From positions 1-64,000 of the IMG/VR virus record IMGVR_UViG_3300008954_000049: DNA of 64,000 bases; one strand, given 5' to 3'. The position numbers were made by a program, and so were the translations under genes. The notes below the pieces were generated by a model that had not been told where the DNA came from, searched no databases, and saw only the letters and a list, made by a program, of their open reading frames with translations. This DNA is from a virus. This document shows positions 15,227-42,460 of this stretch, in pieces (the first letter of the stretch is position 1; every line of letters starts with the position of its first letter).

Positions 15227-15240
15227 CCGGGCCTCGGCGT

Positions 15241-15270
15241 TAGTTCGCCTATGCCGCCGGTCAGGTAGAG
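15241..15270 (+). promoter_or_regulatory. Two-box late element, copy 1
   Basis: TAGTTCG-CCTATG (box A 15248-15253) and GTAGAG (box B 15265-15270), 17 nt start to start. It precedes the gene at 15290 by 20 nt. It is the first of seven copies with identical box spacing. Confidence 0.6.
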
Positions 15271-15289
15271 CATAGGAGGGCGTCAGCCC

Positions 15290-15601: not shown

Positions 15602-15615
15602 AGGAGCGAGCACAC

Positions 15616-16092: not shown

Positions 16093-16106
16093 GGAGGTAG
16101 CCCGCG

Positions 16107-16796: not shown

Positions 16797-16804
16797 GGTA
16801 GACG

Positions 16805-22861: not shown

Positions 22862-24916
22862 ATGAGCTTGGCGGACATCGCCCTCGCAGCGGGAAAGCAA
22901 GAGCGAACAGGGCAGCAGCCAGCGAACATCATCGAGTTCGTGGAGTCGTCCTGGGGACTCAACATCCCCTTGTATCCCGTGCAGCGGGTCATCCTGAAGG
23001 CCCACTACGGCATCCCCCTCGACGACAACCCGTGGGGCCTGGACCTCACGAAGAAGGTCCCGTCCGACCACCCGAACTACGACGAGATCGCGTTCCTGCC
23101 GGACGACGAGGATGAGGACGAGCCCGGCGAGCTGATCGATCTCCTGCCCGATGAAGTCGAGCCGGAGGAGCCGCTCGACTACCCGGACGCGATGGAGGAC
23201 GAGACCGGCTTCTACAAGTTCCGGGTCAAGATCACCGACTGGCGGCGGGAGAACCCCCGCTACATGACGGAGGCCGAGTACCTCCGGTTCCTGTACGCCG
23301 AGGGCCGCAGCAACATCAAGGAGGTGGTGCCTGGCCGGGAGCGCCGCGAGCTGGTGCTCTCCATCGGCCGTCGTTCCGGCAAGACCTTCATCTGCGCCTG
23401 CGTGATGGCCTACGAGGTCTACAAGCTCATCCTCAAGGACAACCCGCAGCGGTACTACGGCATCCCGAAGACCAACGTCATCCAGCTCATCAGCGTGGCG
23501 ACGGACAAGGACCAGGCGGGTCTGCTCTACAACGAGGCCAGCGGCCACTTCTCGAACTGCGCCTTCTACAAGCCCTACACCGCCAACAACACGATGTCCT
23601 ACGCGAAGTTCCAGTCGCCGGAGGACATCAGCCGGTTCGGCCGGTACGTGGACGACCCCACGGCCAAGGCGACCATCAAGGTCAGCTTCAAGTCGTGCGT
23701 GGCGAAGGGCCTGCGCGGTGCAGGCAACATCGTCATCATCCTCGACGAGCTGGCTCACTTCAACGACGTGGGCCAGAGCGACGCGCTCACGATCTACCGG
23801 GCCGTCAAGCCGTCGCTGGCGGCCTTCTCGCCGAAGGACCCCCGCAACCGGCGGCGGGCCATCGGCAAGGTCGAGGGGCGCATCCTCTCGATCTCGTCCC
23901 CCCTCGGGAAGCAGGGCTTCTTCTTCCGCAAGTTCAGGCAGGGCTACTCCGGCGGCCTGGAGTCGCGGAACATGCTCTGCATCCAGGCCCCGACGTGGGA
24001 GGTGAACCCCACGGTCGAGGCGACGTTCCTCGCGGAGGAGTACGCCACCGACCCGGACAGCTTCTTCACGGAGTTCGGGGCCGAGTTCACGGACCGGACG
24101 AAGGGCTGGCTGAAGCCGGGGCCGCTGCTGCGTTGCGTGGACCCGATGCTCCGGCCCGCGCAGAAGGCCCCGCTGCGTGCCCCGCACTTCATGGGCATCG
24201 ACATCTCGGCGGGCCTGGTGGACGGCGACTACTGCGCGGTCGCCATCGGCCACATCGACGAGGAGCACCGGATCGTCCTCGACTACATCGAGCGCATCCG
24301 GGCAGGTGAGGGCGACTACGAAGACCTGGAGCGGCTGTCCTTCGACGACATCACCGCCTGGCTGTACGCCCTGAGCCGCCGCTTCTACATCGAGAAGGGC
24401 ATGTTCGACCAGTGGGCGGGCATCCCCTTCGAGACGGCCTTGCACAAGCGCGGCCTGACGCAGTGCGAGTCGGTCTTCTTCACGAAGCAGCTCACCAGCC
24501 AGATCTTCGCCAACTTCAAGACCCTGATGTTCGAGCAAAAGCTGGTGCTGTTCGACCAGCCCAACCCGGAGAACCCGAACGCCCACGCCGACTACATCGA
24601 GGAGCTGCTGGAGCTTCAGGCGGAGACGCACAGCAAGTACATCGTGACGGTCGAGGCCCCCAACCAGCCCGACAAGTACGACGACTACTCCGACGCCCTG
24701 GTCCGCATGGTGTGGGAGGCCACCCAGCACATGGGCAAGCGGAAGTACATCGCGGGCACCTCGCGCAAGAAGGGCCGCCACAAGGGCCAGGCGTCGCCGA
24801 CCGAGCTGGCGAAGGCCCGGCGCAAGGCGATGGCCCGCTCTCGGCTCGGTGGTTCGAGCCCCGACCGCCAGCGGTCCCTGATCCGGGGTCGCTCACGCGG
24901 CCGGGGAGGGAGGTGA
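22862..24916 (+). CDS. terL: Terminase large subunit
   Basis: 684 aa. Q-like motif near residue 40 (LYPVQRVIL), Walker A GRRSGKT (about 169-176), Walker B IVIILDELAHF (about 289-299) and coupling motif ISSPLG. The RNase H-fold nuclease begins at FMGIDISAGLVDGDY (near 443). An acidic insert of about 70 residues lies between the Q-like motif and Walker A. The C-terminus is basic. It packages and cuts DNA at the portal. GGAGG precedes the ATG. Confidence 0.92.
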   Translation: MSLADIALAAGKQERTGQQPANIIEFVESSWGLNIPLYPVQRVILKAHYGIPLDDNPWGLDLTKKVPSDHPNYDEIAFLPDDEDEDEPGELIDLLPDEVEPEEPLDYPDAMEDETGFYKFRVKITDWRRENPRYMTEAEYLRFLYAEGRSNIKEVVPGRERRELVLSIGRRSGKTFICACVMAYEVYKLILKDNPQRYYGIPKTNVIQLISVATDKDQAGLLYNEASGHFSNCAFYKPYTANNTMSYAKFQSPEDISRFGRYVDDPTAKATIKVSFKSCVAKGLRGAGNIVIILDELAHFNDVGQSDALTIYRAVKPSLAAFSPKDPRNRRRAIGKVEGRILSISSPLGKQGFFFRKFRQGYSGGLESRNMLCIQAPTWEVNPTVEATFLAEEYATDPDSFFTEFGAEFTDRTKGWLKPGPLLRCVDPMLRPAQKAPLRAPHFMGIDISAGLVDGDYCAVAIGHIDEEHRIVLDYIERIRAGEGDYEDLERLSFDDITAWLYALSRRFYIEKGMFDQWAGIPFETALHKRGLTQCESVFFTKQLTSQIFANFKTLMFEQKLVLFDQPNPENPNAHADYIEELLELQAETHSKYIVTVEAPNQPDKYDDYSDALVRMVWEATQHMGKRKYIAGTSRKKGRHKGQASPTELAKARRKAMARSRLGGSSPDRQRSLIRGRSRGRGGR

Positions 24917-25174: not shown

Positions 25175-25723
25175 ATGCCCGGCCTGCGAGCCACTGCCCG
25201 GACGGCTGCCGACCGGGACCTGAACACGCACCTGAAGCGGGCTGTCGGCTCGGTTCGGGCGGCGCTGGACGTGTGCGGGAGGGCCGCCAGGCGGCGGAAC
25301 CCCGACGCGGAGCTGTTCAGGGAGAAGCAGGACCGCCTGGCCCGAGCCGAGAGGCTCCTCCGCTCCATCGGACACCTGGACGGCTACGCGAGCGACGTGG
25401 ACATCAGGCAGGAGGCTCGCGCACTCTGCTCCTGGCTCGAAGGCCGAGAGCGTTCGGGTGGCGTCACCCGGACCAGGCGGCGGGGGCGGGAGTACCAGGA
25501 GCGGCTGGCGGCCGTCCTCGGCTTTCTGGAGGGCCGCACCGTCAACCTGGAAGACGAGGAGCCTGTGCAGCAGAAGGTGGAGCCGGAAGCTCCAGAGCAG
25601 TCGGCTGAAGGTGAACTGTGGCGGCGAGCGGTCGAGCTGGCTCGCCAGCAGGGTGAGGCGGACAACGACGCCTACGTCCAGACCATCTTCTTGCGGCTCG
25701 CACGCGAGGTGAGCGATGGCTAG
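25175..25723 (+). CDS. Hypothetical helical protein before portal
   Basis: 182 aa. It is Arg-rich and helical in the first half (RDLNTHLKRAVGSVRAALDV), then Glu/Gln-rich. It overlaps the portal gene by 8 nt and abuts the previous gene. No domain recognised. The position suggests a packaging or head-assembly role. Confidence 0.55.
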   Translation: MPGLRATARTAADRDLNTHLKRAVGSVRAALDVCGRAARRRNPDAELFREKQDRLARAERLLRSIGHLDGYASDVDIRQEARALCSWLEGRERSGGVTRTRRRGREYQERLAAVLGFLEGRTVNLEDEEPVQQKVEPEAPEQSAEGELWRRAVELARQQGEADNDAYVQTIFLRLAREVSDG

Positions 25724-27431
25724 GTCGAACGACCCCGACGACACGACGGTCGTCCGCAAGGTGGCAGACCGGAAGGGTGTGACGGTGGGCAAGCCCACGA
25801 AGATCGTCACGTCGTCGATGAAGGCCGCCGCGTGCGGTGTCGGCGGCGGCTACGGCGGTGCTGCGGGCGGCTCCATGATGGGGGCGGGCGGCAACTTCTA
25901 CTCGCCCGAGCTGTCCACCGACTTCCTCGAACTGCCGCAGAGCGACGACGAGAAGCGCAACTTCTACCGCTTCTTCTACGACCACGACCCCTTCGTCGGC
26001 CAGGCCATCGACCTGCTCGACGAGCTGCCGCTCTCGAAGGTCCGCCTCCGCAAGCCGAAGGCCCGCAACGAGAAGCTCGCCTCTGCGTCGCTTCGCTTCT
26101 GCGAGAACTGGGCGAAGCGGCAGGGGCTCCTTCACCGGCTGATGGAGATCAACCACGAGTGGAACCTGCTCGGCGAGGCCCACATCTTCTGCGAGGACAC
26201 CTCGCCGGACATGCCGGAGGACATCGAGTTCGAGATCGTCCGCGAGATCACCAAGGACGGTGAGATCGTCGAGCGCAAGGTCCGGCACGAGGACGCCAAC
26301 GAGCGCATGGCGGCCTGGCTCAAGAAGAACTACAAGGGCTGGACGGCCATCCGCTGCCTGCCCCCCGAGCAGATCCACGTCGAGAGCTTCCCCTTCACGG
26401 ACGAGAAGCTCATCGAGCTGATCCCCGACTCGAAGACGAAGGCGGTCATCAACCGAGCAGCCTCCGGGGACCCCCACGCGGCCCGCGTCGTGAACTCGAT
26501 GCCCGAGGACGTGGTGGCGGCCATCGCCGAGGGGCAGAACATCCCGCTGAACACGGACCCGGAGGCGGGGTCGTTCTACTACCTGATGGCCCGCAAGAAG
26601 TCGCAGTATGAGCCCCGTGGCAAGAGCATCCTGCTCCGCTGCCTGCGGACGCTCGTCTTCCGCGACAAGGTCCGCCAGAGCCTCACGTCCATCGCCTCGC
26701 GGCACATGACGCCCTACCGGCTCATCTACGCCGAGGACATGAACGCGGAGCAGACCGAGGACCTCCGCGAGCAGGTGGACCTGGCCCTTCAGGACCCCGA
26801 CTTCTCCATCATCACCAACTTCCAGGTGACGTGGGAGGAGATGGGGGCGGACCAGCGGCTCCCCGACTGGTCGTGGGTCTTCGACTTCACCGACCGCCAG
26901 ATGTACGCGGGCCTCGGGGTCACCGAGAGCCTGCTCTCCGGCGAGTCCAGCTACTCCGGTGACCGCATCAACCTGGAGGTCATCAACCAGCGGTTCATGC
27001 TCAACCGGGAGACGTTGCAGGGGTTGGTGGAGGAGCAGTTCTTCCGGCCGATGTGCGCCCGCATGGGGTTCGTCGAGGAAGACGAGGACGGCAACCTCCA
27101 GGTCATCGTCCCCCGCTTGTCGTTCACCCGGCTGTCGTTCCGCGACAACACCGAGACGTTCGACGCCCTGATGAACCTCTACCAGAAGGGCTCGCTGGAC
27201 ATCGACACGATCCTCGAACACCTGAACCTCGACCCGGTGACGGTGCGCGAGAAGCTCATGCAGGACGTGGGCACCGTGCAGGACGCGACGTTCAACGAGC
27301 TGTTCCGTGGCCTCTACTCGCGGGTCGGCGACGCCCTGGCGGAGAACAGCGACTTCGCCGAGAAGATCGCCGAGTACCTCGGGCTGAAGTACGAGAAGCC
27401 ACAGGAAGAGGGCGGCGGCCGGTTCGGGTAG
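25716..27431 (+). CDS. Portal protein
   Basis: 571 aa. A Gly-rich N-terminus precedes a typical portal core: FYRFFYDHDPFVGQAIDLLD, then LHRLMEINHEWNLLGEAHIF and a long beta/alpha region ending in helices around RETLQGLVEEQFFRPM. Size, order after TerL and this wing/stem pattern fit the dodecameric DNA-entry portal. It should bind TerL during packaging and the head-tail connector afterwards. Confidence 0.85.
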   Translation: MARSNDPDDTTVVRKVADRKGVTVGKPTKIVTSSMKAAACGVGGGYGGAAGGSMMGAGGNFYSPELSTDFLELPQSDDEKRNFYRFFYDHDPFVGQAIDLLDELPLSKVRLRKPKARNEKLASASLRFCENWAKRQGLLHRLMEINHEWNLLGEAHIFCEDTSPDMPEDIEFEIVREITKDGEIVERKVRHEDANERMAAWLKKNYKGWTAIRCLPPEQIHVESFPFTDEKLIELIPDSKTKAVINRAASGDPHAARVVNSMPEDVVAAIAEGQNIPLNTDPEAGSFYYLMARKKSQYEPRGKSILLRCLRTLVFRDKVRQSLTSIASRHMTPYRLIYAEDMNAEQTEDLREQVDLALQDPDFSIITNFQVTWEEMGADQRLPDWSWVFDFTDRQMYAGLGVTESLLSGESSYSGDRINLEVINQRFMLNRETLQGLVEEQFFRPMCARMGFVEEDEDGNLQVIVPRLSFTRLSFRDNTETFDALMNLYQKGSLDIDTILEHLNLDPVTVREKLMQDVGTVQDATFNELFRGLYSRVGDALAENSDFAEKIAEYLGLKYEKPQEEGGGRFG

Positions 27432-27485: not shown

Positions 27486-30400
27486 GTGGCAGTGCCGACC
27501 CACATCGCGATGAGCAGCTCGGCGTCCCTGGCGCTGATGAAGTTCTTGTCGGACCTGGCGAAGCGCCTGGGGGTCGGCAGGCACGTCTACGTCGTGGGCG
27601 GGGCCGTCCGCAACTTCGTCATCCGCCGCCCGATCAAGGACATCGACGTGGTCATCGACTCGGTGGCCCTGCGCGGCAAGGACTCCGACTGGTTCGCCAA
27701 GGAGGTCGCCAAGGCCATCCCCGCGAAGACCCGCATCCAGACCAACGACTACGGCGTCGCCCTGCTGCACATCGTGGGCGACTGGATGCTCGGGGAGGAG
27801 AACCTCCAGGGCGAGGACATCGAGATCGCCAACGCCCGCATCGAGTCCTACACGGACGGCGGGTACAAGCCCACGCACGTCGAGAAGGCGACCATCGAGG
27901 ACGACGCCCGTCGCCGCGAGTTCACCTTCAACTGCATGGCCGGGGACACCCTAATCCCTACTGAGAAGGGCATCCTCCGCATCGACCAGATCGCCTCTCG
28001 TGACGGGGGGGATCATCAGGACATCCGGTTGACCGTGGCGGGGCAGGACGGCCCTTCGACTGCTGTGGGGTGGCAGTACAGCGGCTACGCCCCCACCCTG
28101 CGGGTGACGACTGAGTGGGGTCATTCTTTCTCCTGCACGCCCCACCATCCGGTTCTGGTCCTTCGGGGCCACGACCACGAGTGGGTTCAGGCGGACCAGC
28201 TTGAGGAAGGTGACCTGCTCTGTGTGCCCGTGCGGCAGGTGGCGAGGCGGACGCCCCTTGCTCTCGACCTGCCCGATCCGGTACAGCCCAAGCGTGGGCG
28301 ACTCAAGGATGTCCGCAAGCCTGAGAGGATGACGCCCGAACTGGCGTTCCTGATCGGGTGCATCGTGGCCGAGGGGTCGAACACCCACAAGCGGGTGTCG
28401 TTCAGCAACTCTGATCCAGCCCTCATCTCCCACTACGTCGAGTGCTTCCACGCCACCTTCGGGTTCCAGCCCTCCCGCAACAAGGTGGTCGAGAAGGGGT
28501 CCGTCCGCATCTTGCGTGGGGTGGAGTTTGTCGCCAGCGCAGACGGCTACGACATCTACGCCGACAGCAAGGCCGTGGTCGGATGGCTGGAAGACCTCGG
28601 CCTGTACTGCGGGGGGTCCAAGGACGGCAAGTCAGCCTCCCACCACAAGATCGTCCCGTGGTCCATCCTGCAAGCTGACGAGCGAAGTCAGTGGGCGTTT
28701 CTTGCGGCCTATCTGGAGGGTGACGGCTCGATCCGGCCCGAGACGGGGCGTATCACCTACTGCTCGGCGTCCCCCCATGTTCGCCAGCAGTTGCAGGTGC
28801 TTCTCGGTGCTCACGGCATTTTGAGCAAGGTGAAGGGCAGGTTCGTCTACATCAACGCTGTGGATTCGGCTCTCCTGTGGGAGAAAATCCAACCGTGGAT
28901 GGTCACCAAGGGGTTCGATTACACCCGGCGGGACAACAAAGCCCGCAACCGCTACGGCATCCCCGCAGAGTACATTCGGGGGTTCCTTGCCGGGCGGAAG
29001 CAGGACACCAGCCGGGCCGTCTACGCCACGGACGGGGATGGGTTCAGAACCCTCCCCGATGTCCATGAGCCTGTTCGGAAGGTTCAGCGGCTTCTCCACG
29101 ATGCTCATGCCCGAGGGGGTTTCGACGGGTTCCTGGCGAGCCTCAAGGCCATCAGCCCGGACGAGTTTGCCAAGCTCCAGCGGTTGTTCGACCTCGGTTA
29201 CCAGTACGTCGAGGTCACGTCGGTTGAGGATGCGGGGCAGCAGGACGTATTCGACATCTCGATGGGCGAGGGGGTCGAGCCTGCTTTCGTGGCGAACGGG
29301 GTGGTGGTCCACAACACGCTGATGTGGCGGCTGCAAGACCTGGCGAACGGCCCGGACAAGGCCGAGATCATCGACCTGACCGGGTGCGGGCTCGCCGACC
29401 TGGCGGCGGGCTCGATGAAGTGCCCGTCCAGCCCGGACAAGACCTTCACCGACGACGCGACCCGCATGGTCCGGGCCATCAAGTTCATCGTGAAGTACGG
29501 CTTCAAGCTGACGCCCGACACCGAGGCGGCCATCCGGCGGCACAAGGGCAAGCTCAAGAACATCAAGCCGGGCCACCTGAGCACCATGCTCGTCGATCTC
29601 CTGCGGGAGCCCACTGCGAAGAAGGCTCTGGAGGAGATGCAGCGGCTCGGGCTGCTCGACGAGATCAAGGACATCGCGCAGAGCAACGGGGCGATGGCGA
29701 ACGCCCTGTTCAACGTGGCCGATGAGACGCGCTCGGATGCCCTGTTCGCGATGATGGACATGGGGCTCCCGAGCGGGAAGCGGCTCGGGTTCCTCGACCG
29801 CTACCAGGTCGCCCGCCTGCGGGAGATCGCGGTGGACCTGTCGTTTGACGCCACCGACCAGTTCATCGCGGCCCTCAAGCAGCCCGGCAAGGTGCTGGAC
29901 ATGCGGTCGCTCATCAAGGAGTTCGGGCTCCGGGGCCAGCAGATCGCACAGGTCACCGACCTGGCTCGCCGTCACCTGCTCGACAGTCCGTCCCTCGTGA
30001 CCGACAAGCGGCGGCTGACGCAGCGCGTCAGGCTCGACCTTCAGGGTGGCCGCACGGCGGCGATGGCCCCGACCTGGTTCCCCGATGAGGGCGACCAGGT
30101 GACGAGCATCGAGGCGGGCGACGGGTGGGCCTACATCGGCTTCGACTCCGGCCAGGAGGTCGGCCTGCCGACCGACGAGCGGCGGAGCCAGGGCTGGAAG
30201 GCAGCTCGCACGGCGGCCGTGAAGGGCTCCGGGGCGAAGGTGGGGCTGATGCTCCCGCTGCCGGAGGAGTTGGCCGCGAAGTTCCCGAGCCTCGGCGACG
30301 AGGACGACAGCCCGCCCCACTGCACGCTGCTCTACGTGGGGGACGTGCGCGGGCGAGAGGCCGAGTTCCTGGCAGCCGTGCAGGCCGAGGCCAGCCAGTA

Positions 30401-33400
30401 CCGGCCGATGCGGGCCACCATCCAGCCCCTCGACTACTTCGAGCACCCGGAGAAGGAACGCCGAGTGGCGTACTGCCCGGTGCGGTTCGACGGGTACATG
30501 GACCAGCTTCGAGACGGCATCCGGGTTCGGCTGACCGATGCCGGGTTCGCCCTGAAGGACCGCTCGCTCCTCATCTACAACCCGCACATCACCCTCGCCT
30601 ACCTGGACGGGCTCGACTCGAAGTACGAGGGCCAGGTGCCCACGGGTTCGTGGACGGTCGAGGGCCTGGCGGTGTGGGGGATGGCGAAGCCCGAGACGTA
30701 CCCGCTGTCCCGCACGGCGAAGAAGTTCGAGCTGGAGATCGGCGACCCGCTGTTCACGGGCAAGTACCTCAACAGCCCCGGCCGCATCGAGGGTTTCGGC
30801 GAGAACGAGAAGGGCGACCCCACGGTCATCGTTCGCAAGCGTCCGAAGAAGGACCAGGGCGGGCAGGGGGCCAAGAAGGAGGTCAAGCTCTTCAAGGTCC
30901 GTTACGACAAGGACCAGGCCGCCCGCGACAAGGCGGAGAAGTCCGCTCGTGAGTTCGGCACGGACGAGGCCCGCAAGGAGTACCTGCGGGAGCACCCTGG
31001 AGCTGACCCGAAGAACCACACCGTCACCGACGACGCGCCCGAGGCCGAGGATGACAAGCCGAAGCGCGGGAAGCTGCGGTCGGCCGTCAGCGGTGCAGCG
31101 GCTATCGCGAAGAAGGTCATCAAGCGGAAGGTCGAGCGGGGCAAGGACGTGGCCTCCGGGGTGGCGAAGCTCCTCAAGGGCGACGTGCCAGACCCGAAGG
31201 AGCGTGCCCGCATCGCTCGGCTGCTCATCCGCGAGGTGATGAAGGGCGGCATCAACGCCGCCATGTACGTCGCGATCCCGCCCCCGCCCGGCTACATCTT
31301 CGCGAAGAAGGTGGTCGCCGAGGCCACCAAGCTGCTCGACAAGAAGCTCGAAGCCCGGTTCGGCGTCAGCAAGGTGGGCGGCGAGCTGACCGAGGACGCC
31401 CTCGCGCAGATGGTGCAGGACTCGCTCAACGAGGCTGTGGACGCTGTGGGGCAGTCGAAGGAGGCCAACGCGGCCATCCGGCGGCTGTGCGACCGCTACA
31501 ACCAGGCGACCATGCACCGCGTCGTCCTCGAAGTCGGTGCCGACGACATCACGAAGAGCGTCCCCATCGACTCCCTCGCCCTGCTGTTCAACAGGCAGTT
31601 CGCCGACGCCGTGCAGGCGTCCGGGGAGGAGGAGACGATCGTTCCGTTGCACCTGCTGGCCGAGACGCAGCCGTCTCCGGTGGACAGCACGATGCCGCTC
31701 TACGGCCAGGGCCGCCCGGCCCTGCCTCGCGGTGAAGCGGGCGAGGTCGAGATCCACAGGATGCTCGTGGACCGGGTGGCCTCCCGGTACGCGCAGCGGT
31801 TCGGCCCGAACACCCCGCTGATGGAGCACGAGGGCAACAAGGTCAAGTACCGGGTCAAGTCCGACAGCGACGCCATCCTCGCAGGCGTCTACTACGGCCG
31901 AGCCCGCATCGGCGGGCTCCACGCCAGCGTGATGCGCTACCCCGAGCGGGAGACGTGTGGGCGGGATGTCCTGAAGCTGCTGGCGAAGTACCCGCAGGTC
32001 GAGGACACCAGCCGACCTCGGTGGGTGGCGAGCGACGGGGAGGAGCGGACGAACACCCGAGCCCTCCAGGTCTACAAGGCGTTCATCACCGACGAGAGCA
32101 AGCAGGGCCTCGGCATCGGCAAGGCGATGTACCTGGCCGTCATGGTCGAGTGGTTCAAGAAGGTCGGCCCCTTCCTGTTCATGCCCTACGAGTGCTCCGG
32201 CGGCTCCGGCACCAGCACCGCTGCCGGGCGGGTGTGGAAGAGCCTCGCGCGCGACTTCCCCTCCTCCGGCAACGTCATCGCCGTGCTCCGGGCACCGACC
32301 CTGCCCGGCGGCCTGAAGACGGCGGCCAAGGGCACGAAGAAGAAGGTCAAGAACCAGAAGGGCGAGCAGGTCACGGTCTACGAGTACAGCGAGGGCCAGG
32401 TCCAGCACCGCAACCGCGAGAAGGCGAAGAAGGTCGAGAAGCTCCGGCAGAACCTCGACAAGCTGCGCGGCCAGATCGGCAAGGACCTCAAGTCGAAGGA
32501 CGAGAAGACCCGGCTGTGCGCCCTGGCCGTGGGCCTGATGAACGACACCTACGAGCGGGTCGGCAACCCCGGTTCGGCGAAGGACGGCCACTTCGGGGTC
32601 ACCGGCTGGCAGGCGAAGCACGTCACCCTCTCCGGCGGCAAGGCGACCATCAAGTACGTCGGCAAGTCCGGGGTGAGCCAGACGAAGACCACCAGCGACT
32701 CCGGCCTGGTCAGCGGGCTCCGCGAGGCCCTGAAGGGCAAGTCCGGCACCGACCCCGTGTTCGAGGGCGTCGAGGCAGGCGACGTGAACGCCTACCTGAA
32801 GCCCCACGGCATCACCGCGAAGGACATCCGGGGGCTGCACGCCAACCGCGAAGTCCAGACCCGGCTCAAGGCCATCCGGGGCAAGGGCGGCAAGCTCCCG
32901 ACCGACAAGAAGGAGCGGGAGCAGAAGCTCAAGAAGGAGTTCCAGCAGGCGCTCGATGAGGCGGCCAAGGAGGTGGGGCACGAGGCCAGCACGCTCCGCA
33001 GCCAGTACCTCGTGCCGGGCCTCGAAGACACCTTCATGCGGGACGGCACGGTCAAGGAGAAGCTCGACAAGCAGGGGCGGCTCTCGTGGGGCCTGCGGCA
33101 GATCCTCGGCCGAGCCGACGAGATCGTCGCGGTCTTCGGGTGGGGCGAGTCCGAGATGACCAGCGTGAACGAGGACCCCGAGAAGGACCTCGGCGGCGGG
33201 CTCATCGGCTACGTCTGGCGGACCGGCCGCCAGTGGTACAGCATGGCGAAGGGCTCGATGCAGTCGGAGAAGCGGCGGAACCGGGCGCACGGCGTCTACG
33301 GTCTTCGTCACCCGATGCGCCTCGCGGCCGACAAGGTCGCCATCATCTCCATCTACAACGCCTGGCCGGAGGAGGTGGGCTACACCAGCCCGGACCCGCT

Positions 33401-35903
33401 GGTCAGCCTGGTGGGCTTCGAGGGGCTGATCTCCAGCCTGACCGCCTACGAGTGGGCGCTCATCAACGACATGGACCGGGCCGCCGGGGGTGCCGAGCAC
33501 ATCCTGGTGGCGGACGACGGCACGTTCACCTGGCGGGGCTACCCGGTGATGCCCGACGTGGTCACCGAGCTTCAGGGGGCGGGCTACCTCGGCAACGCAG
33601 AGGACGGGAAGATCGGCCTGTCCTGGCAGCTCATCGGCAAGCGGCAGCTCTACAAGCAGGCCACCCGTCGCCTGGCCGCCAGGTGGTTCGTCGAGGGGGC
33701 GTCTCCCCGCCTGGTCTGGCGGGCTCCGCGAGGTTCCGACCCGTGGAAGCTGGCACAGAAGGCCGGGATCAACATCTTGTCGCACATGGACTTCGTGGCG
33801 GGGTACGAGGCCGGGGGCAAGCTCGTGGCTGCCTTGTTCGACTCGTCGGATTCGGGTGACCAGGAGTGCTACGCCTTCGACATCGTCGTGGACCCGGATG
33901 GCTGGCAGCGAAGGGGGCTCGGAGGGAAGCTGATGGACATCGCCATCAGCCAGTACGACGACCTGGTCGAGCCGTTCCCCGACATCCAGTTCTGCCTCGA
34001 TGCGGTGAACCCGCACGCGGTTCGGATGCTCAAGCAGCGAGGGTTCGTGGAGACAGGTCGGGAGCAGGGGCACACCCTGATGACCCGGCGGGCCACGAAG
34101 TCGAAGGCCGAGAAGGAAGAGGAGGAGGTCGAGCGCCTCAACCGCCGCAACCCCACGAAGAAGCCCCCGCGTCGCGATCTCCGCCGGAACCGGATGAAGG
34201 AGGACGACCCGGACATCGAGGGCTTCGGGGCGGACGGCGACCGGGACCTGAGCAACAACTACAAGAAGCGGGCGACCCTGGCCGCCAACCGCGTCGCTCT
34301 CCGCTGGCTGATGGCCGAGGGCGAGCCGAGCCAGAAGCGCAAGCCCGGCGACGTGTGGCCGTCCGACGACGGCACCTGGAACGCGATGAACGCGAAGGGC
34401 CAGGTGCGCAACGACTTCGGCAAGGACAAGGACTCGAAGGCGAAGGCCGAGGCCTACGCGAAGGGCGACGCCGACTCCCCGGAGGAGGCCGAGGAAGCCG
34501 TGGCCGAGAAGGCCAAGGAGGACGAGGCCAAGAAGAAGGAGCAGGCGAAGGCCGACAAGGAGAAGTTCACGGCCGAGATCACCGACCTGGCCGAGAAGCT
34601 CTACGGGGACAAGGTCATCACGGAGGAGACGGCTCTGCTGCTCATGGAGAAGGCCGACTCGGCCGAGTTCCATGCGGCGTACAAGGCGGAGATGAAGCAG
34701 CTCCGCGAGCTGTTCGACGACTTCGGCGTGACGGTGTCGGCGATGAAGGACATCGCGAAGGACCCCTTCAAGGGCGTGGACGGGGACGACATCGACGAGC
34801 TGGCCGAGGCCGTGGTCCAGGCGAAGGCCCAGGAGGCCCTGCTGCTCGACCCCACCAACGTCGGCGGCCAGCCCCTCTCCTCCGAGCAGCTCGACGATGA
34901 CGCCCGGACCGAACGGGCGATGCAGGCGATGAAGCTCTACCGGCGGGTGAGCCCGGACCAGCGAAGGCAGGTGGCCGAGGACGCGGCGGCGAAGCTCGGT
35001 GACTTCGAGAAGGGCAGCCCCGAGCACGACGAGCTGAACGCGATCATCGACGGCATCCACGCGGCGGCGGTGCTCAACGACGAGGACTTCGACGCGAAGC
35101 ACCCGGACGGCCGCCTGGTGCGGGAGCCGCTCAACAGCAAGCTCAAGCTGGTGCTCAAGCAGATGGTCAAGCAGGGCAACGCCGAGGTGTTGTTCCTGAA
35201 GGACTCGTCGAAGGTCTACGCGGCGGAGGGCCGGGCGGCTGTCCGCGACGCGATGGGCAAGCTCGACGACGAGGGCCTGGCGGCGATCTCCGAGGGCACC
35301 TCGTGGGAGCCGCTGGTCAAGGCGCTCGCCGACAACCCGGACATGGCTCCCGAGGTGCAGGAGTACCTGCGGGCCATGATCCGCGACATGGGCGTGATGC
35401 ACATGACCACCGTGCAGGGCGTCGCGGCGGCCATCACCAGGAAGAAGCGGGACCCCGCCAACCTCCCCGAGCTGTTCGACCAGACGGCGGACGAGGTGGA
35501 GGACAAGACCCGCGAGGCCGTGGATTCGGCGGTCGATGAGGCCCTCCAGGCGTGCCTGGAGGAGGGCAAGACGCAGGCCGAGTGCATGAAGCGGTCGCGG
35601 GAAGCTGTGGTCCGGGCACAGGCCGAGGCGACGGCCGACGCCATCGACGACATGGACGTGGAGCCCGACGCGCAGGACACGGCGGTTGCAGTGCTGCGGG
35701 CCGTGGCCGGTGGGGCAGACCTCTCGCTGCTGGACGACCCTTCAGTGCGACCGGAGCGGTCGCCCGAGGAGCGGAAGCGGGACTTTCTCGAAAATGTGAA
35801 GGACCCCGCCGAGCGAAAAAGAATCGAGCAGATGTCGCCTGATGAGTTCACGGCGATGGAAAAAGCGGTTCTTTCGGAGGACGAGCAAGACCTGGTGGCC
35901 TGA
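27486..35903 (+). CDS. 2805-aa multi-enzyme virion-region protein with intein
   Basis: GTG start after GTAGGAGC. Domains in order: (1) Cca/PcnB-type nucleotidyltransferase, VVGGAVRNF with KDIDVVID, resuming after the intein to about residue 860. (2) A 461-aa intein at 150-610. (3) A 2H phosphoesterase with HCTL near 945 and HITL near 1034. (4) A GNAT fold, about 1425-1600 (KQGLGIGKAM). (5) A topoisomerase IB-like domain, about 1620-1860, with R1676, K1727, R1782, H1832 and Y1841. (6) A second GNAT, about 2095-2208 (WQRRGLGGKLM). (7) A 590-residue charged helical tail. R-(V/L)-A-x-R-(Y/W) motifs lie at domain borders near 1427, 2061 and 2265. It lies between portal and prohead protease, so packaging into the capsid and cleavage into separate enzymes is plausible but inferred. 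Confidence 0.85.
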   Translation: MAVPTHIAMSSSASLALMKFLSDLAKRLGVGRHVYVVGGAVRNFVIRRPIKDIDVVIDSVALRGKDSDWFAKEVAKAIPAKTRIQTNDYGVALLHIVGDWMLGEENLQGEDIEIANARIESYTDGGYKPTHVEKATIEDDARRREFTFNCMAGDTLIPTEKGILRIDQIASRDGGDHQDIRLTVAGQDGPSTAVGWQYSGYAPTLRVTTEWGHSFSCTPHHPVLVLRGHDHEWVQADQLEEGDLLCVPVRQVARRTPLALDLPDPVQPKRGRLKDVRKPERMTPELAFLIGCIVAEGSNTHKRVSFSNSDPALISHYVECFHATFGFQPSRNKVVEKGSVRILRGVEFVASADGYDIYADSKAVVGWLEDLGLYCGGSKDGKSASHHKIVPWSILQADERSQWAFLAAYLEGDGSIRPETGRITYCSASPHVRQQLQVLLGAHGILSKVKGRFVYINAVDSALLWEKIQPWMVTKGFDYTRRDNKARNRYGIPAEYIRGFLAGRKQDTSRAVYATDGDGFRTLPDVHEPVRKVQRLLHDAHARGGFDGFLASLKAISPDEFAKLQRLFDLGYQYVEVTSVEDAGQQDVFDISMGEGVEPAFVANGVVVHNTLMWRLQDLANGPDKAEIIDLTGCGLADLAAGSMKCPSSPDKTFTDDATRMVRAIKFIVKYGFKLTPDTEAAIRRHKGKLKNIKPGHLSTMLVDLLREPTAKKALEEMQRLGLLDEIKDIAQSNGAMANALFNVADETRSDALFAMMDMGLPSGKRLGFLDRYQVARLREIAVDLSFDATDQFIAALKQPGKVLDMRSLIKEFGLRGQQIAQVTDLARRHLLDSPSLVTDKRRLTQRVRLDLQGGRTAAMAPTWFPDEGDQVTSIEAGDGWAYIGFDSGQEVGLPTDERRSQGWKAARTAAVKGSGAKVGLMLPLPEELAAKFPSLGDEDDSPPHCTLLYVGDVRGREAEFLAAVQAEASQYRPMRATIQPLDYFEHPEKERRVAYCPVRFDGYMDQLRDGIRVRLTDAGFALKDRSLLIYNPHITLAYLDGLDSKYEGQVPTGSWTVEGLAVWGMAKPETYPLSRTAKKFELEIGDPLFTGKYLNSPGRIEGFGENEKGDPTVIVRKRPKKDQGGQGAKKEVKLFKVRYDKDQAARDKAEKSAREFGTDEARKEYLREHPGADPKNHTVTDDAPEAEDDKPKRGKLRSAVSGAAAIAKKVIKRKVERGKDVASGVAKLLKGDVPDPKERARIARLLIREVMKGGINAAMYVAIPPPPGYIFAKKVVAEATKLLDKKLEARFGVSKVGGELTEDALAQMVQDSLNEAVDAVGQSKEANAAIRRLCDRYNQATMHRVVLEVGADDITKSVPIDSLALLFNRQFADAVQASGEEETIVPLHLLAETQPSPVDSTMPLYGQGRPALPRGEAGEVEIHRMLVDRVASRYAQRFGPNTPLMEHEGNKVKYRVKSDSDAILAGVYYGRARIGGLHASVMRYPERETCGRDVLKLLAKYPQVEDTSRPRWVASDGEERTNTRALQVYKAFITDESKQGLGIGKAMYLAVMVEWFKKVGPFLFMPYECSGGSGTSTAAGRVWKSLARDFPSSGNVIAVLRAPTLPGGLKTAAKGTKKKVKNQKGEQVTVYEYSEGQVQHRNREKAKKVEKLRQNLDKLRGQIGKDLKSKDEKTRLCALAVGLMNDTYERVGNPGSAKDGHFGVTGWQAKHVTLSGGKATIKYVGKSGVSQTKTTSDSGLVSGLREALKGKSGTDPVFEGVEAGDVNAYLKPHGITAKDIRGLHANREVQTRLKAIRGKGGKLPTDKKEREQKLKKEFQQALDEAAKEVGHEASTLRSQYLVPGLEDTFMRDGTVKEKLDKQGRLSWGLRQILGRADEIVAVFGWGESEMTSVNEDPEKDLGGGLIGYVWRTGRQWYSMAKGSMQSEKRRNRAHGVYGLRHPMRLAADKVAIISIYNAWPEEVGYTSPDPLVSLVGFEGLISSLTAYEWALINDMDRAAGGAEHILVADDGTFTWRGYPVMPDVVTELQGAGYLGNAEDGKIGLSWQLIGKRQLYKQATRRLAARWFVEGASPRLVWRAPRGSDPWKLAQKAGINILSHMDFVAGYEAGGKLVAALFDSSDSGDQECYAFDIVVDPDGWQRRGLGGKLMDIAISQYDDLVEPFPDIQFCLDAVNPHAVRMLKQRGFVETGREQGHTLMTRRATKSKAEKEEEEVERLNRRNPTKKPPRRDLRRNRMKEDDPDIEGFGADGDRDLSNNYKKRATLAANRVALRWLMAEGEPSQKRKPGDVWPSDDGTWNAMNAKGQVRNDFGKDKDSKAKAEAYAKGDADSPEEAEEAVAEKAKEDEAKKKEQAKADKEKFTAEITDLAEKLYGDKVITEETALLLMEKADSAEFHAAYKAEMKQLRELFDDFGVTVSAMKDIAKDPFKGVDGDDIDELAEAVVQAKAQEALLLDPTNVGGQPLSSEQLDDDARTERAMQAMKLYRRVSPDQRRQVAEDAAAKLGDFEKGSPEHDELNAIIDGIHAAAVLNDEDFDAKHPDGRLVREPLNSKLKLVLKQMVKQGNAEVLFLKDSSKVYAAEGRAAVRDAMGKLDDEGLAAISEGTSWEPLVKALADNPDMAPEVQEYLRAMIRDMGVMHMTTVQGVAAAITRKKRDPANLPELFDQTADEVEDKTREAVDSAVDEALQACLEEGKTQAECMKRSREAVVRAQAEATADAIDDMDVEPDAQDTAVAVLRAVAGGADLSLLDDPSVRPERSPEERKRDFLENVKDPAERKRIEQMSPDEFTAMEKAVLSEDEQDLVA
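27933..29315 (+). other. Intein with LAGLIDADG homing endonuclease
   Basis: 461 residues in frame. It starts with Cys (CMAGDTLIPTEKG) and ends VVVHN, followed by Thr as the +1 residue. Splicing block B-like TPHHPVLV is present, and two LAGLIDADG motifs occur (LIGCIVAEGS near 288, LAAYLEGDGS near 405). It interrupts the conserved RRREFTFN|TL motif of the nucleotidyltransferase, the typical active-site placement of inteins. Its DNA uses more A/T at third codon positions than the flanks, which suggests later acquisition. Splicing joins N149 to T611. Confidence 0.92.
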
Positions 35904-36778: not shown

Positions 36779-37681
36779 GTGGGGAATCGCCACGCCACCG
36801 TCTTCGTCGATTACCAGCAGCGGGCCTCCGAGTTCGCTGTTGGTGACCTGGCGTACCCGCTTGCGGGTGGAGCGACGGACGAGTCGCAGGCGGGGACGGT
36901 GACTGCGGTGTGGCCTGGCATCGGCCAGGTGGACATCGACTTCCCGTGGGGTTCCGGCCGCTACCCGGTCGAAGACGTGCAGAGGGTGACCGACATCATC
37001 ACGAAGACGCCCGATCCAGAGCACAGCACGGTTCCCGGCGGGGCGGGGACCGTGAGCGTGCCTGGTGGGCCTGTGGCGAAGTCGGCTGCCCGCCTGTCCA
37101 TCGACCGGATCAGCCACGCCTGGATCAAGTCGGCCCTCTACTGGGCCAGCAAGGACCGCCACTACCGGGGCACGAAGGCCGAACTGGACGGCGGGAAGTA
37201 CGCCTGCCCGAAGTGCAAGGCCGACGACGAGGGCAACCCCATCCACCTCCGCCCGGCGAACTACAAGCGGGTGGACGGCCAGAGCCACCGCCTGCTCGGG
37301 TGCCCGCACTGCATGTTCCTCATCAAGCGGGACCAGATCATCGGCGACCCGGCCTACGAGCCCAACGACGACGGCCAGCAGAACGACTTGCAGGCGGAGT
37401 GGGACGGCACGATGGACCAGGGGTTCGACCTGGTCCAGCAGGTGAAGTCGGCAGCCGACGAGCGCACCCTCACGGTGAAGTTCAGCGGCAACGGCGACGG
37501 GGCCGAGTCGATGGCCCGGATGCTCGCGTACATCGGCAAGATCGGTGGTGTCGGGCACAGCTTCGAGATCGTGGTGGACCCGGACGACTCCGAGTACCGC
37601 AAGAGCTTCGGCTTCGACGGTGACGGCAGCGACCGAGTCCTGGCCTGCGACCTCGACGGCAACCCGGTGGAGGCTGCCTGA
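36779..37681 (+). CDS. Zinc-ribbon protein before prohead protease
   Basis: 300 aa, GTG start after AGGAGG. An N-terminal KOW/SH3-like beta segment (GDLAYPLAGGATDESQAGTV) precedes a Cys pair set YACPKCKAD ... LGCPHCMF, a likely zinc ribbon (residues about 140-185). The C-terminus is alpha/beta (LTVKFSGNGDGAESMARML). KSAARLSIDRISHAWI resembles the R-x-A-x-R-x motif family weakly. It overlaps the protease start by 1 nt. Function unknown. Confidence 0.6.
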   Translation: MGNRHATVFVDYQQRASEFAVGDLAYPLAGGATDESQAGTVTAVWPGIGQVDIDFPWGSGRYPVEDVQRVTDIITKTPDPEHSTVPGGAGTVSVPGGPVAKSAARLSIDRISHAWIKSALYWASKDRHYRGTKAELDGGKYACPKCKADDEGNPIHLRPANYKRVDGQSHRLLGCPHCMFLIKRDQIIGDPAYEPNDDGQQNDLQAEWDGTMDQGFDLVQQVKSAADERTLTVKFSGNGDGAESMARMLAYIGKIGGVGHSFEIVVDPDDSEYRKSFGFDGDGSDRVLACDLDGNPVEAA

Positions 37682-39147
37682 TGGCCTTCCTGAAGTACGC
37701 CAGGGCTGAGGTCGTCACCCCGCACGTCGGACGTGCGGGCTGGGCGAAGGTTCGCACGGCCGCCAAGGCCGCTGCGGAGGTGTCGGAGAACCTCATCGAC
37801 CGCGCGTCGGAGATCTTCGGCAAGCCCTTCAACCCGAGCGACTACCTGCTGACCCACGCGACCATCGTGGCGTCGGTGGACACCTTCGAGCCGCCGAACA
37901 CGAAGCTCGGCAAGCACTCCGAGGGCGGCTTCAGGATCAACCGGAAGTACGGCAAGTTCCGGGTCAAGCTCGGCTGCGACAAGTTCATCAACAACAACCT
38001 CGACGCCTGGGACCGGGACGTTCTGCTCAAGAGCTACCGGACCTTCATCGGGGCGCAGAACTTCGTCGAGCACGTCCAGGTCGAGGAGCTGTCGAAGGGC
38101 CGGGTCATCGACGCGGTCGCTCGCGACATCGGCGACTCGGTCTACGTGGACATCCTCATCGCCACGGACCGCAAGCACGCGGACCTGGTCGAGGCCATCG
38201 AGTCCGGCAAGATGGGCACCCTGTCGATGGGCTGCACCGTCGATGGCACCATCTGCACGAAGTGCGGGCACTGGGCCGCCGACGAGACGGAGATGTGCCC
38301 CCACATCAAGTACGAGAAGGGGAACGTCTTCTTCGACGAGCAGGGGCGTCAGCACCGCGTCGCGGAGCTGTGCGGTCACCCGAGCCTCGACCCGACCGGC
38401 GGCGTCCACTTCATCGAGGCGTCCTGGGTCGGCACCCCCGCCTTCACGGGCGCGGTCCTCCGCAACGTGCTCGCCATCCACCAGGGCGACAAGCTCGGCA
38501 AGGCCGCCTCGGCCATCCTCGCGACTCCCCCGGAGGAGTGGACGAAGGGCACCCGCCGCAAGGCCGCTGCCCTCGCCTTCGGCGGCGACCACTTCATGGC
38601 CGGGTGGGGCGACGAAGACGACGACGTGGACGCCCCGGCCGAGAAGAAGGACGAGGGCGGCCCGTTCGACGACATGGAACGTGAGCTGACCGATCACATG
38701 CGGGATCGGGTCAAGAAGAAGCTCAAGAAGGACATGGACCAGAAGGACCTCGACGAGGCCCTCGGTCCCGAGGAGTCTTCGGCGGCTCCCAACGACAACG
38801 TGGTCAAGCAGGCGGCGGTGTACGACGCCACTGTGGCTTTCCTCTGTCGGCACGCTTCGAGCGACACCGACCTGATGGACAAGGTGGCCCTACTGCACGC
38901 GGAGTACGGGGTGGAGATCCCCGTGCCTGTGTACCGGGCTGCTGCGCAGCTCGGCGACATCGGCGAGTACAGCTCGTCGAGTCAATTCCTCCGGGCTTGT
39001 CGAGCGGCGCTCGGCCGCAAGCCCACAACCGCCGAGGCACAGACCTTGATCAAGCTCGGCAAGCTCATCTCGCGGCGAGGCCAGGATCGCAACGGGAGCA
39101 GGAACCCATCCCTGGCAGTCGCCACAGGCAAGGAGACGAAGCGATGA
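37681..39147 (+). CDS. Prohead (capsid maturation) protease
   Basis: 488 aa. The core at residues 100-200 has FVEHVQVEELSKGRVIDA (candidate catalytic His), VYVDILIATDRKHADLVEAI and GKMGTLSMGC (candidate catalytic Ser), the order found in herpes-like phage prohead proteases such as T4 gp21 relatives. A CTKCGHW...MCPH insert may bind zinc. The C-terminal 200 residues are charged and helical and may act as a built-in scaffold. It lies just before the scaffold candidate and capsid genes, as expected. Confidence 0.72.
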   Translation: MAFLKYARAEVVTPHVGRAGWAKVRTAAKAAAEVSENLIDRASEIFGKPFNPSDYLLTHATIVASVDTFEPPNTKLGKHSEGGFRINRKYGKFRVKLGCDKFINNNLDAWDRDVLLKSYRTFIGAQNFVEHVQVEELSKGRVIDAVARDIGDSVYVDILIATDRKHADLVEAIESGKMGTLSMGCTVDGTICTKCGHWAADETEMCPHIKYEKGNVFFDEQGRQHRVAELCGHPSLDPTGGVHFIEASWVGTPAFTGAVLRNVLAIHQGDKLGKAASAILATPPEEWTKGTRRKAAALAFGGDHFMAGWGDEDDDVDAPAEKKDEGGPFDDMERELTDHMRDRVKKKLKKDMDQKDLDEALGPEESSAAPNDNVVKQAAVYDATVAFLCRHASSDTDLMDKVALLHAEYGVEIPVPVYRAAAQLGDIGEYSSSSQFLRACRAALGRKPTTAEAQTLIKLGKLISRRGQDRNGSRNPSLAVATGKETKR

Positions 39148-40661
39148 GCACTCGTCAGCGCATGACGTGGGCGGCCCTCGACCGTGAGGCGGCTGCTCCC
39201 CCCGCAACCCCCGGCTACGGAGTCGAGGACCAGGACCACCCGGCCCACACCCAGGACGATCCGGGCAAGGACGACTACAACATCGGCGGCCCCTCGGAGT
39301 TCGCCGAGGACGTTCACCCGCCGCCCTACGGGGACAGCGGCCCGCCCGCGACGCCCGGCTACGGGGTCGAGGACCAGGACCACCCGGCCCACACCGGGCA
39401 GGTCGGCCGCCAGGCCAACCTGATGCAGCTCGTCCGGCGCAAGTCGGCCAAGTGCCTCGTGCTCGCGCGGGCCACGCTCGGCAAGACCGCGTCGTGGGAC
39501 GACATCGAGAACCAGGCGTTCGGCTACATGAGCATGGACGACACCGCCCTGGAGGCCTCGGTCGAGCGCCTCGGCGGCGACTTCCTCTCGATGGAGGAGG
39601 AGCTGCTCGGGATGTTCCCCGAGGACGAGGCCCCGGCCCTGGACCCGATGGAGGCCCGCCTGGCCGCGATGGAGGCCGAGCTGAAGGCGCTCAAGAGCGC
39701 CGACCAGAACGACCCCGGCGGCGAGACCCTCGGCACCTCCGGCAAGTCCGAGCAGGAGGCGAAGAAGGAAGAGGCGGCCGTCTCGGACAAGGCCGCGAAC
39801 CCCGTCATGGCGATGTTCGACGCCTTCGACCTGGACGGCGACGGCTTCGTGACGGCCGAGGACTGGACCGGCCCCCGCGCCATGTTCGCGTCCCTCGACA
39901 CCGACAACGACGGCATCATCGCTCGGGCCGAGGTCCTCGCGGGCTGCGAGAAGCTCGACGGCAAGATGCAGGAGATGTGCGAGGCCAAGAAGAAGGAGGG
40001 CTCCGAGGACGAGTCCGACGACGACGAGGGCTCCGACAAGGAGGCGTCCGACAAGACCGCCTTCGGCCACGTCGCCGAGTTCGACGACGACGAGCTGGAG
40101 ATGCTCCAGGCCATGCAGTACGGCATGGACGACGAGCTGGTGGACGACGGCGAGATCGCCTGCGGCGACGTGATGGCCTCGAAGAACGCCTCCGACGACG
40201 AGGACGACGAGGAGGGCTCCGACAAGGAGGCCGCCAAGAAGTCCGAGGACGACGAGGACGAGGGCTCCGACGACGAGGGCGGTGACGACGAGGGCTCCGA
40301 CGACGAGGGCGGCGACGACGACGAGGACGAGGGCGGCTCCGACAAGGAGGCCTCCGACGCCGAGTTCTTCGCCACCGGCTTCGACCCGATGGGCCTCTCG
40401 GACGGGACCGAGCTGACGGCCGCCGACAAGGCCGCCTTCAACGAGGTCTTCGGCTCCGAGGACGAGGACGAGGGCGACGACGAGGGCAGCGACAAGGAGG
40501 CCAGCCTCGCGGCCATCCTCCAGCCGCAGGCCCGCAAGGCGTCCAAGGGCGTCAAGTCGGTCGGCCAGGTCCCGAAGGTCGCCTCCAGCGGCGGCAACGA
40601 GATCGCCGAGCTGTCGAACCTCTGGGCCTCCGACCCGGACGTGAGCGGCAGCTTCTCCTGA
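39144..40661 (+). CDS. Acidic EF-hand scaffold candidate
   Basis: 505 aa, start at 39144 overlapping the protease stop. The N-terminus holds two copies of an 18-residue unit (PATPGYGVEDQDHPAHT core). Two EF-hand loops follow: DLDGDGFVTAED and DTDNDGIIARAE. The rest is extremely acidic with four copies of GSDKEA(S/A). The last 40 residues are basic and could bind capsid. Position between protease and capsid, acidity and repeats fit a scaffolding protein removed by proteolysis. Calcium-controlled folding is suggested by the EF-hands. Confidence 0.65.
   Translation: MSTRQRMTWAALDREAAAPPATPGYGVEDQDHPAHTQDDPGKDDYNIGGPSEFAEDVHPPPYGDSGPPATPGYGVEDQDHPAHTGQVGRQANLMQLVRRKSAKCLVLARATLGKTASWDDIENQAFGYMSMDDTALEASVERLGGDFLSMEEELLGMFPEDEAPALDPMEARLAAMEAELKALKSADQNDPGGETLGTSGKSEQEAKKEEAAVSDKAANPVMAMFDAFDLDGDGFVTAEDWTGPRAMFASLDTDNDGIIARAEVLAGCEKLDGKMQEMCEAKKKEGSEDESDDDEGSDKEASDKTAFGHVAEFDDDELEMLQAMQYGMDDELVDDGEIACGDVMASKNASDDEDDEEGSDKEAAKKSEDDEDEGSDDEGGDDEGSDDEGGDDDEDEGGSDKEASDAEFFATGFDPMGLSDGTELTAADKAAFNEVFGSEDEDEGDDEGSDKEASLAAILQPQARKASKGVKSVGQVPKVASSGGNEIAELSNLWASDPDVSGSFS
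39199..39251 (+). repeat. 18-aa coding repeat, copy 1
   Basis: Encodes PPATPGYGVEDQDHPAHT. A second copy lies exactly 144 nt downstream (39343-39395) with the same protein sequence and synonymous changes, so it is selected at protein level. Confidence 0.8.
39343..39395 (+). repeat. 18-aa coding repeat, copy 2
   Basis: Second copy of the scaffold N-terminal unit, in the same frame as copy 1. Confidence 0.8.
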
Positions 40662-41587: not shown

Positions 41588-42460
41588 ATGAACGCCACCA
41601 ACGCCGTCAAGCAGAAGATCATCGGCGAGTACATCAAGACCCCGCAGGGTCGCGCCAAGCTCGCCGCGTCGATGACGCAGCCCCTCCGCACGCGGCGGGA
41701 CTACGCCGCCGTGGGCCGCAAGACCTTCCTGGTCGAGCAGCTCCCCGACGGTGCGCTGCCCATCTACGACAAGGACCCCGACATCACCGCCTACGTGGTC
41801 GGCGAAGAGGGCCAGAACATCCTCGCGGTCACCAAGCCGCGCCGGGTGATCTTCCCGCTCTTCGAGATCGCGTCGAACCCGGAGATCCCGCTCACCCAGA
41901 TCAAGGAGCGCCGCTTCGACCTGATCGAGCGGTCCCAGGACCTCGGCCGGGCGCAGATCCAGGCCGCCGAGGACGAGCGCGTCTTCGCCGTCCTCGACGC
42001 CGTCGCCACGGCGGGCTTCGACTCCCTGCCGGGTCAGCTCAACGCCGACATCCCCGTCATCGCCCCGATCTCGGGCGCGGTGCTGGCGGACGCCTTCGCG
42101 CTCATCGAGCGGCACGACCTCCGGGTCGCCCGCATCTACATGAACGCGCGGGACTACGCGGACATCCGCAAGTTCGGCCGCGACATCCTCGACATCGAGT
42201 CGCAGGCGACGCTCCTGAAGACGGGCCTCCAGGGGGTCATCTACGGGGCCAACGTCGTCACCAGCCGCCTCGTGCCCAACGGCACGGTGTACCTGTGCTG
42301 CGAGCCGGAGATGTTCGGCCGCATCCCGGTCCGCACCGAGCTGACGGTCCTGTCGGCCGACGACCCGAAGCGCCGGATGATCGGCTTCTCGATCTTCGAG
42401 AACCTGGGCCTCGGGGCCTACAACCCGCGCGGCCTCGCCCGCCTGACCGTCACCCGCTAG
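41588..42460 (+). CDS. Major capsid protein (HK97-like)
   Basis: 290 aa. After a short helical N-terminus, the sequence shows HK97-type features: an E-loop region (GALPIYDKDPDITAYVV), a spine helix (RFDLIERSQDLGRAQIQAAEDERVFAVLDAV), the P-domain/A-domain (YMNARDYADIRKFG) and a terminal strand (TELTVLSADDPKRRMIGFSIFENLG). A long intrinsic terminator follows, as usual for a highly expressed capsid gene. It shows no long N-terminal delta domain, consistent with a separate scaffold. Confidence 0.82.
   Translation: MNATNAVKQKIIGEYIKTPQGRAKLAASMTQPLRTRRDYAAVGRKTFLVEQLPDGALPIYDKDPDITAYVVGEEGQNILAVTKPRRVIFPLFEIASNPEIPLTQIKERRFDLIERSQDLGRAQIQAAEDERVFAVLDAVATAGFDSLPGQLNADIPVIAPISGAVLADAFALIERHDLRVARIYMNARDYADIRKFGRDILDIESQATLLKTGLQGVIYGANVVTSRLVPNGTVYLCCEPEMFGRIPVRTELTVLSADDPKRRMIGFSIFENLGLGAYNPRGLARLTVTR

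Follow-up and report, generated by a model that had tools for sequence, protein, structure and literature searches.

The open reading frame at positions 27486..35903 (+) of the 64,000-nucleotide stretch analysed here (the window, taken from a 64.7-kb record) encodes a precursor of 2805 amino acids that is probably a phage polyvalent protein, which, by analogy with P1 DarB, would be packed in the head and injected with the DNA. Polyvalent proteins have been described in phages and conjugative elements as comprising 2-15 domains with unrelated activities and as being encoded close to virion genes in phages of the portal-terminase type; 2H, GNAT and Pol-beta-type nucleotidyltransferase (NT) domains are listed among their components (Iyer et al. 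2017, PMC5512222). Several traits of this class were found in the chain and around it: at least two unrelated activities in one polypeptide (NT, 2H phosphoesterase and topoisomerase IB with Pfam scores above the cut-offs, and two GNAT domains by fold or weak profile), late genes for the virion and for portal-terminase packaging on its flanks (terminase large subunit, TerL, portal, protease and capsid protein), and variable mosaic architectures with shared domains, as borne out in a survey of 63 loci. This match and the P1 DarB precedent both support the packaging of the chain.

The frame itself is real, as the first-pass annotation had held. It is uninterrupted over its 2805 codons, opens with GTG and has an AGGAG ribosome-binding site 6 nt 5' of this start codon. 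A 110.9-kb sister contig, which matches the window at 99.97% identity over a region containing most of the gene, shows the same frame. The two differ at seven nucleotides across the ORF, six of them within 12 bases (window 29937-29948), where two whole codons are altered; this cluster is either a local variant or assembly noise. The sister contig probably belongs to the same phage population and is hence weak as independent evidence, and stronger support for the frame comes from diverged relatives, in which ORFs of 1700-3125 aa occupy the same place. In a simple Nei-Gojobori count on the domains compared, dN/dS between this protein and its relatives was 0.13-0.57, below 0.6 in every domain. 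The opposite possibility, raised alongside the original reading, is that an assembly or frameshift error has joined several genes. Some relatives do have the modules as separate ORFs; nevertheless, the shared frame of the sister contig, the same-place ORFs of up to 3125 aa in diverged phages and the purifying selection contradict such a fusion and make it extremely improbable.

The location of the gene between portal and prohead protease, also noted earlier, was confirmed by profile matches. Upstream lie the terminase large subunit (22862..24916; phrog_2, 1e-20; 59% to LR745208) and the portal protein (25716..27431; phrog_16240, 3.6e-30), and downstream the prohead (head-maturation) protease (37681..39147; phrog_18299, 3e-13) and the major capsid protein (41588..42460; phrog_2522, 3.6e-48), all on the + strand. 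Packaging of the chain is supported by this position in the head module, adjoining portal and protease. After the protease, window 38997-40661 encodes a protein with an EF-hand calcium-binding loop, and near the window end an 822-aa protein (59864-62332) has a von Willebrand factor A domain and a phrog_2426 match.

The capsid protein is 84% identical to that of LR745208, a 485-kb uncultured phage, 49% to that of Tunturiibacter phage Tunturi_5 and 39% to that of Bacillus phage G. A scan with a topoisomerase alignment retrieved 62 viral loci, on contigs of up to 618 kb, and was far more productive than single-protein scans with the tail or 2H region, which recovered the sister contig alone. Because of the capsid and TerL kinship with LR745208 and the size of the relatives' contigs, the window most likely represents part of a huge-phage genome. 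The topoisomerase scan of bacterial genomes matched a single uncultured metagenome bin, which pointed to no host, and the topoisomerase had no counterpart among the matches from Bacillus phage G or Tunturi_5. LR745208 has, at the same portal-protease locus, a topoisomerase IB 52% identical to that of the chain together with the linker; however, its protein is only 508 aa long, NT, 2H, GNAT and tail domain were not detected in it, and its N-terminal part is HAD-like on our reading of a motif. In Tunturi_5, a distant relative that is in culture, gp321 (L035:1-3590), annotated as Nudix, gives weak matches to 2H (E 5e-4) and GNAT1 (E 4e-3) and is possibly a culturable counterpart of the chain.

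The N-terminal enzyme is a class II NT of the poly(A) polymerase / CCA-adding type that is split by an intein. The N-terminal part of the NT (aa 1-149; 27486..27932; Pfam PF01743) carries GGAVR and DID, and the C-terminal part (aa 611-850; 29316..30035; Pfam PF12627, NT profile 597-848) carries motif C, DATRMVRAIKF, and the RNA-binding region; both Pfam domains, the PolyA_pol head at aa 34-154 and PolyA_pol_RNAbd at aa 672-727, score above their curated cut-offs. All the class II motifs (GGxVR..DxD, RR(D/E)FTxN and DxxRxxR) are present, GGAVR and DID being invariant in 16/16 homologues. Within the PDB the NT is nearest in sequence to poly(A) polymerases, and the closest entry to the intein-free homologue L004 is E. 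coli poly(A) polymerase, 3aqk (E 5e-17). Between the two parts lies the intein (aa 150-610; 27933..29315; like both NT parts on the + strand), in which Pfam detects Intein_splicing (PF14890, aa 164-610) and LAGLIDADG_3 (PF14528). It begins with CMAGDTLIP, contains the block TPHH and two LAGLIDADG motifs and closes with VVVHN, Thr being the next residue, so that all the hallmarks of a class 1 intein (Cys1, block B TxxH, C-terminal HN, +1 nucleophile, LAGLIDADG) are there. The insertion point falls in the invariant NT motif RR-E-F-T-x-N|T; excision in silico restores RRREFTFN-TLMW, and its RR, N and T are shared by 16/16 intein-free homologues. The site is empty in L004 and L007 and is occupied by an intein in L040, L045, L058 and L077. 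Since splicing would remove aa 150-610, the 2805-aa precursor would yield a mature product of 2344 aa. The tRNA nucleotidyltransferase-like domain that had been proposed stands by Pfam and by motifs, whereas the intein that splits it had been missed. Inteins also interrupt the portal of relatives (L042, L067, L068, L093) and, once or twice, their prohead protease (L045, L051, L052, L054, L055, L058, L067, L068, L078, L093), for which reason the head module seems to be an intein hot spot.

The remaining modules, all on the + strand, bear out the list of domains and key residues given before (NT, 2H, GNAT, topoisomerase IB, GNAT and helical tail) by Pfam, motifs and fold models. The 2H phosphoesterase (aa 913-1073, HCT...HIT; 30222..30704; Pfam PF13563) matches 2_5_RNA_ligase2 at aa 941-1064 above the curated cut-off. 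It is followed by a small conserved module (aa 1083-1142; 30732..30911), found by profile in 29 loci and termed SH3-like as a descriptive name, and by a region (aa 1186-1430; 31041..31775) for which the survey profiles found no relatives. GNAT1 (aa 1436-1613, QGLGIG; 31791..32324) has no sequence match in Pfam or the PDB and was recognised with AlphaFold2 and Foldseek: the model, built from six sequences, reached a pLDDT of 80, and its top matches in the PDB were mostly GNAT folds, the scores being modest (E about 8e-3, TM 0.3-0.5). The topoisomerase IB (aa 1631-1856; 32376..33053; Pfam PF01028, 4.7e-24) matches Topoisom_I at aa 1640-1836 above the curated cut-off as well as topoisomerase I entries in the PDB, and its catalytic R, K, R, H and Y are all present. 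Two small conserved modules defined by profiles, D9 (aa 1866-1955) and D10 (aa 1956-2059), then extend over 33081..33662; their order is inverted in L039. GNAT2 (aa 2071-2205, QRRGLGG; 33696..34100) rests on matches below cut-off, to Acetyltransf_7 at aa 2111-2188 (Pfam PF13508, 2e-4) and weakly to AAC/RimI sequences in the PDB, and a GNAT2 domain stands at the same place in L046. A conserved charged linker (aa 2207-2263, KPPR.DLR..RM; 34104..34274) recurs in 46 survey loci, and the helical tail domain (aa 2310-2770; 34413..35795) in 30. The acidic helical tail described earlier is confidently modelled by AlphaFold2 as an all-helical folded domain (aa 2290-2805; pLDDT 85.5; 24 sequences), and the model has no fold match in the PDB or in BFVD, a viral fold library, which counts against the packaging of the chain. 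The tail is read as a folded, lineage-specific domain and is a candidate virion anchor, this last role being a guess from its position.

Invariance of the catalytic residues (both H-x-T motifs of the 2H in 22/22 of the family, and the R, K, R, H and Y of the topoisomerase in 51/51 homologues) argues that the predicted enzymes of the chain are functional, and with dN/dS below 0.6 it favours a packaged enzyme cargo. The HExxH motif is absent from the 2805-aa protein and occurs, by pattern only, in some relatives, for which no Pfam zincin match above cut-off was obtained; a 1009-aa protein of one relative, with a match below cut-off to the anthrax-lethal-factor family, is read only as a possible HExxH peptidase.

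The order of these domains is one among many at a modular locus that a huge-phage lineage has in common. Profiles for each module were run on 63 loci, namely the 62 from the topoisomerase scan and LR745208, some of them near-duplicates, so that the counts are not independent. Of the 37 loci with a portal, 34 have the topoisomerase downstream of it, which supports the packaging of the chain; in three loci the topoisomerase is a separate gene upstream of the portal, and at some others no head gene turned up in its vicinity, and both of these arrangements weigh against packaging. A core of topoisomerase, linker and helical tail recurs, usually downstream of the portal, and the other parts (NT, 2H, SH3-like module, GNATs, HExxH motifs) change places around it, the modules being either wholly fused or spread over two to four ORFs, as separate genes for instance in L050, L055 and L080. 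The NT precedes the 2H in this protein, L050 and L070 and follows it in L042, L043, L046, L049, L080 and L085; a 2H without NT is seen in L047 and L091, and an NT without a full 2H in L039. This recurrence of the same modules, fused, split and reordered at one locus, also speaks for a packaged polyvalent protein. The first-pass annotation had taken the domain order to be undescribed, and indeed the search across relatives found the exact order in this population only, among many other permutations; nevertheless, it is a variant of a shuffled locus, and polyvalent proteins had already been described. Three things go beyond that earlier reading: the intein, the conserved locus with its shuffled modules, and a motif that recurs at module borders. 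In L023, which stems from the same phage as does L005, a protein of 669 aa (14999-17005) lies between the portal and the polyvalent protein; it combines a GNAT with an AAT (acyltransferase) domain and has this motif twice, and we read it as a second cargo-like protein.

The motif, RVAxRW for short, was searched with the pattern [RK][VIL]A.[RK][WYF]. It occurs three times in this protein (+ strand), at aa 1430, 2062 and 2269, before GNAT1 (RVASRY, 31773..31790), GNAT2 (RLAARW, 33669..33686) and the tail (RVALRW, 34290..34307). The window proteins hold seven copies against 0.5 expected from shuffles, and the 80 module-bearing ORFs hold 73 against 3.1, an enrichment of about 20-fold that depends in part on the discovery set, the pattern having been picked by eye from some of the counted sequences; most of the topoisomerase-scan loci were not used in defining it, yet they show it as well. 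Only 8 of the 73 copies fall inside domains, though domains cover 48% of these ORFs, and the typical spacing is 13-14 residues before the NT and 21-22 before the topoisomerase. A whole 402-kb relative has only five copies against 1.25 expected, and the motif is therefore not a genome-wide feature; nor is it universal, few copies being present in the LR745208 region, which counts against the packaging of the chain. The motif is also found near either end of stand-alone proteins: C-terminal in window 46765-47172 and 47175-50066, N-terminal in 15290-15601, and near an end of a further protein at 18774-19361, one of these four having a weak SWIM zinc-finger match. In Bacillus phage G, gp13 (L036:11937-12203), encoded just 5' of the portal, begins MKRLISKTAARYAASGE, which is motif-like. 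The idea that the motif marks a classical cleavage site was rejected, as no conserved cleavage motif or acidic residue stands beside it. The motif may be a packaging or docking peptide; that it is a relic of fusion is less probable, given that the fused copies keep the consensus.

We infer that the chain is spliced, packaged and injected, and the same applies to every substrate and role suggested for it. The gene would be made late, together with the head genes; the intein would splice itself out, joining the NT halves into one 2344-aa chain; and the C-terminal linker and helical tail, perhaps with the RVAxRW motifs, would retain this chain inside the prohead near the portal, from where it would enter the cell along with the DNA. 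There, the topoisomerase IB may relieve torsion of the very large incoming genome, the 2H may act on RNA ends or signalling nucleotides, the NT may add nucleotides to RNA 3' ends, e.g. of damaged tRNA, and the GNATs may modify host proteins. It is tempting to go further, to a proposal that we hold only tentatively and regard as less probable than its converse: RVAxR(W/Y/F) would be a new phage packaging tag that marks protein ends and is repeated between modules, so that huge phages can string and shuffle injected enzymes on a chain anchored by the helical tail, the head module being an intein hot spot (NT, portal and protease).

The chain could instead be a polyprotein that the prohead protease cuts, perhaps beside the RVAxRW motifs, into enzymes during head maturation. 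The protease gene lies downstream of the chain, the motif separates modules far more often than chance predicts and seldom falls within domains, the relatives L050, L055 and L080 encode the same modules as separate genes, and P1 DarA has been reported as proteolytically processed. The prohead cleavage-site consensus of T4 and SPN3US is, however, acidic, and no conserved residue of that kind follows the motif; moreover, the motif also stands at the extreme ends of stand-alone proteins, where cutting would free nothing, and the N4 virion RNA polymerase is packaged uncut, so that we consider processing of the chain rather unlikely. Less probable still is that the chain stays out of the virion, as a late intracellular enzyme complex or as a head-assembly protein with enzymes for replication, repair or packaging. 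It is favoured by the relatives in which topoisomerase IB and NT are separate genes, in some cases without a nearby head gene, whereas the conserved portal-side position and the fusion of enzymes there to a conserved tail are what would be expected of virion cargo and not of soluble enzymes.

For the packaged polyvalent protein, it may also be asked whether the 2H and the NT form one RNA end-repair pathway, as had been suggested, in which the 2H opens cyclic phosphate ends and the NT rebuilds the 3' end. The two domains are adjacent, in either order, at many loci, and CCA-adding enzymes are considered RNA repair enzymes in jumbo phages; GNATs modifying host RNA polymerase have also been described among phage enzymes (PMC7824862). 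The chain, however, has no RNA ligase, and Iyer et al. favour RNases or degraders of signalling nucleotides for the 2H of polyvalent proteins, as these are not seen with RNA ligases (PMC5512222); in addition, each domain occurs at some loci without a full partner. The pathway is one possibility only, not favoured by the literature on 2H in polyvalent proteins and, in our estimation, somewhat less probable than its alternatives taken together.

If the chain is packaged, this lineage of very large phages would possess an enzyme cargo that is conserved and shuffled and sits at the portal; its central member, the topoisomerase IB, may help the several-hundred-kilobase genome to enter; a short candidate packaging motif is offered for direct testing, and inteins sit in head-assembly genes and in enzyme cargo alike. 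In T4 the capsid targeting signal is N-terminal and cleaved, whereas RVAxRW is located at either end of proteins or internally and has no evident cleavage consensus. A short capsid targeting peptide is known to direct the T4 internal proteins into the prohead (discussed in PMC9024508). The N4 virion RNA polymerase provides another precedent, being a very large enzyme that is carried inside the head and then injected (as cited by PMC5512222), although the N4-type enzyme has other domains, and inteins or such a shuffled module set were not found for it in the literature searched. Likewise, the searched literature gave no description of the lineage-specific linker, the helical tail or the recurrent RVAxRW motif, and in the text of PMC5512222 the word intein is absent and topoisomerase appears once, in a reference title. 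P1 DarB differs from the chain in its annotation, which names a methylase and a helicase; neither homology nor a common motif was found to link the chain with the P1 proteins, RVAxRW is absent from the five that were scanned (DarB, DarA, DdrA, DdrB and Ulx), and no P1 record was among the matches listed in a protein search with the chain. DarB is nevertheless the best precedent as regards function: this 251-kDa head protein is present in the virion, its gene neighbours those of portal and protease, and its first 30 residues are enough to send a reporter into the capsid (PMC9024508). Taken together, the chain resembles DarB in being a giant protein whose gene adjoins portal and protease, DarB being packaged via a short N-terminal signal, and it resembles the polyvalent proteins in being likewise large, multi-enzyme, encoded beside virion genes and mosaic in its architectures.
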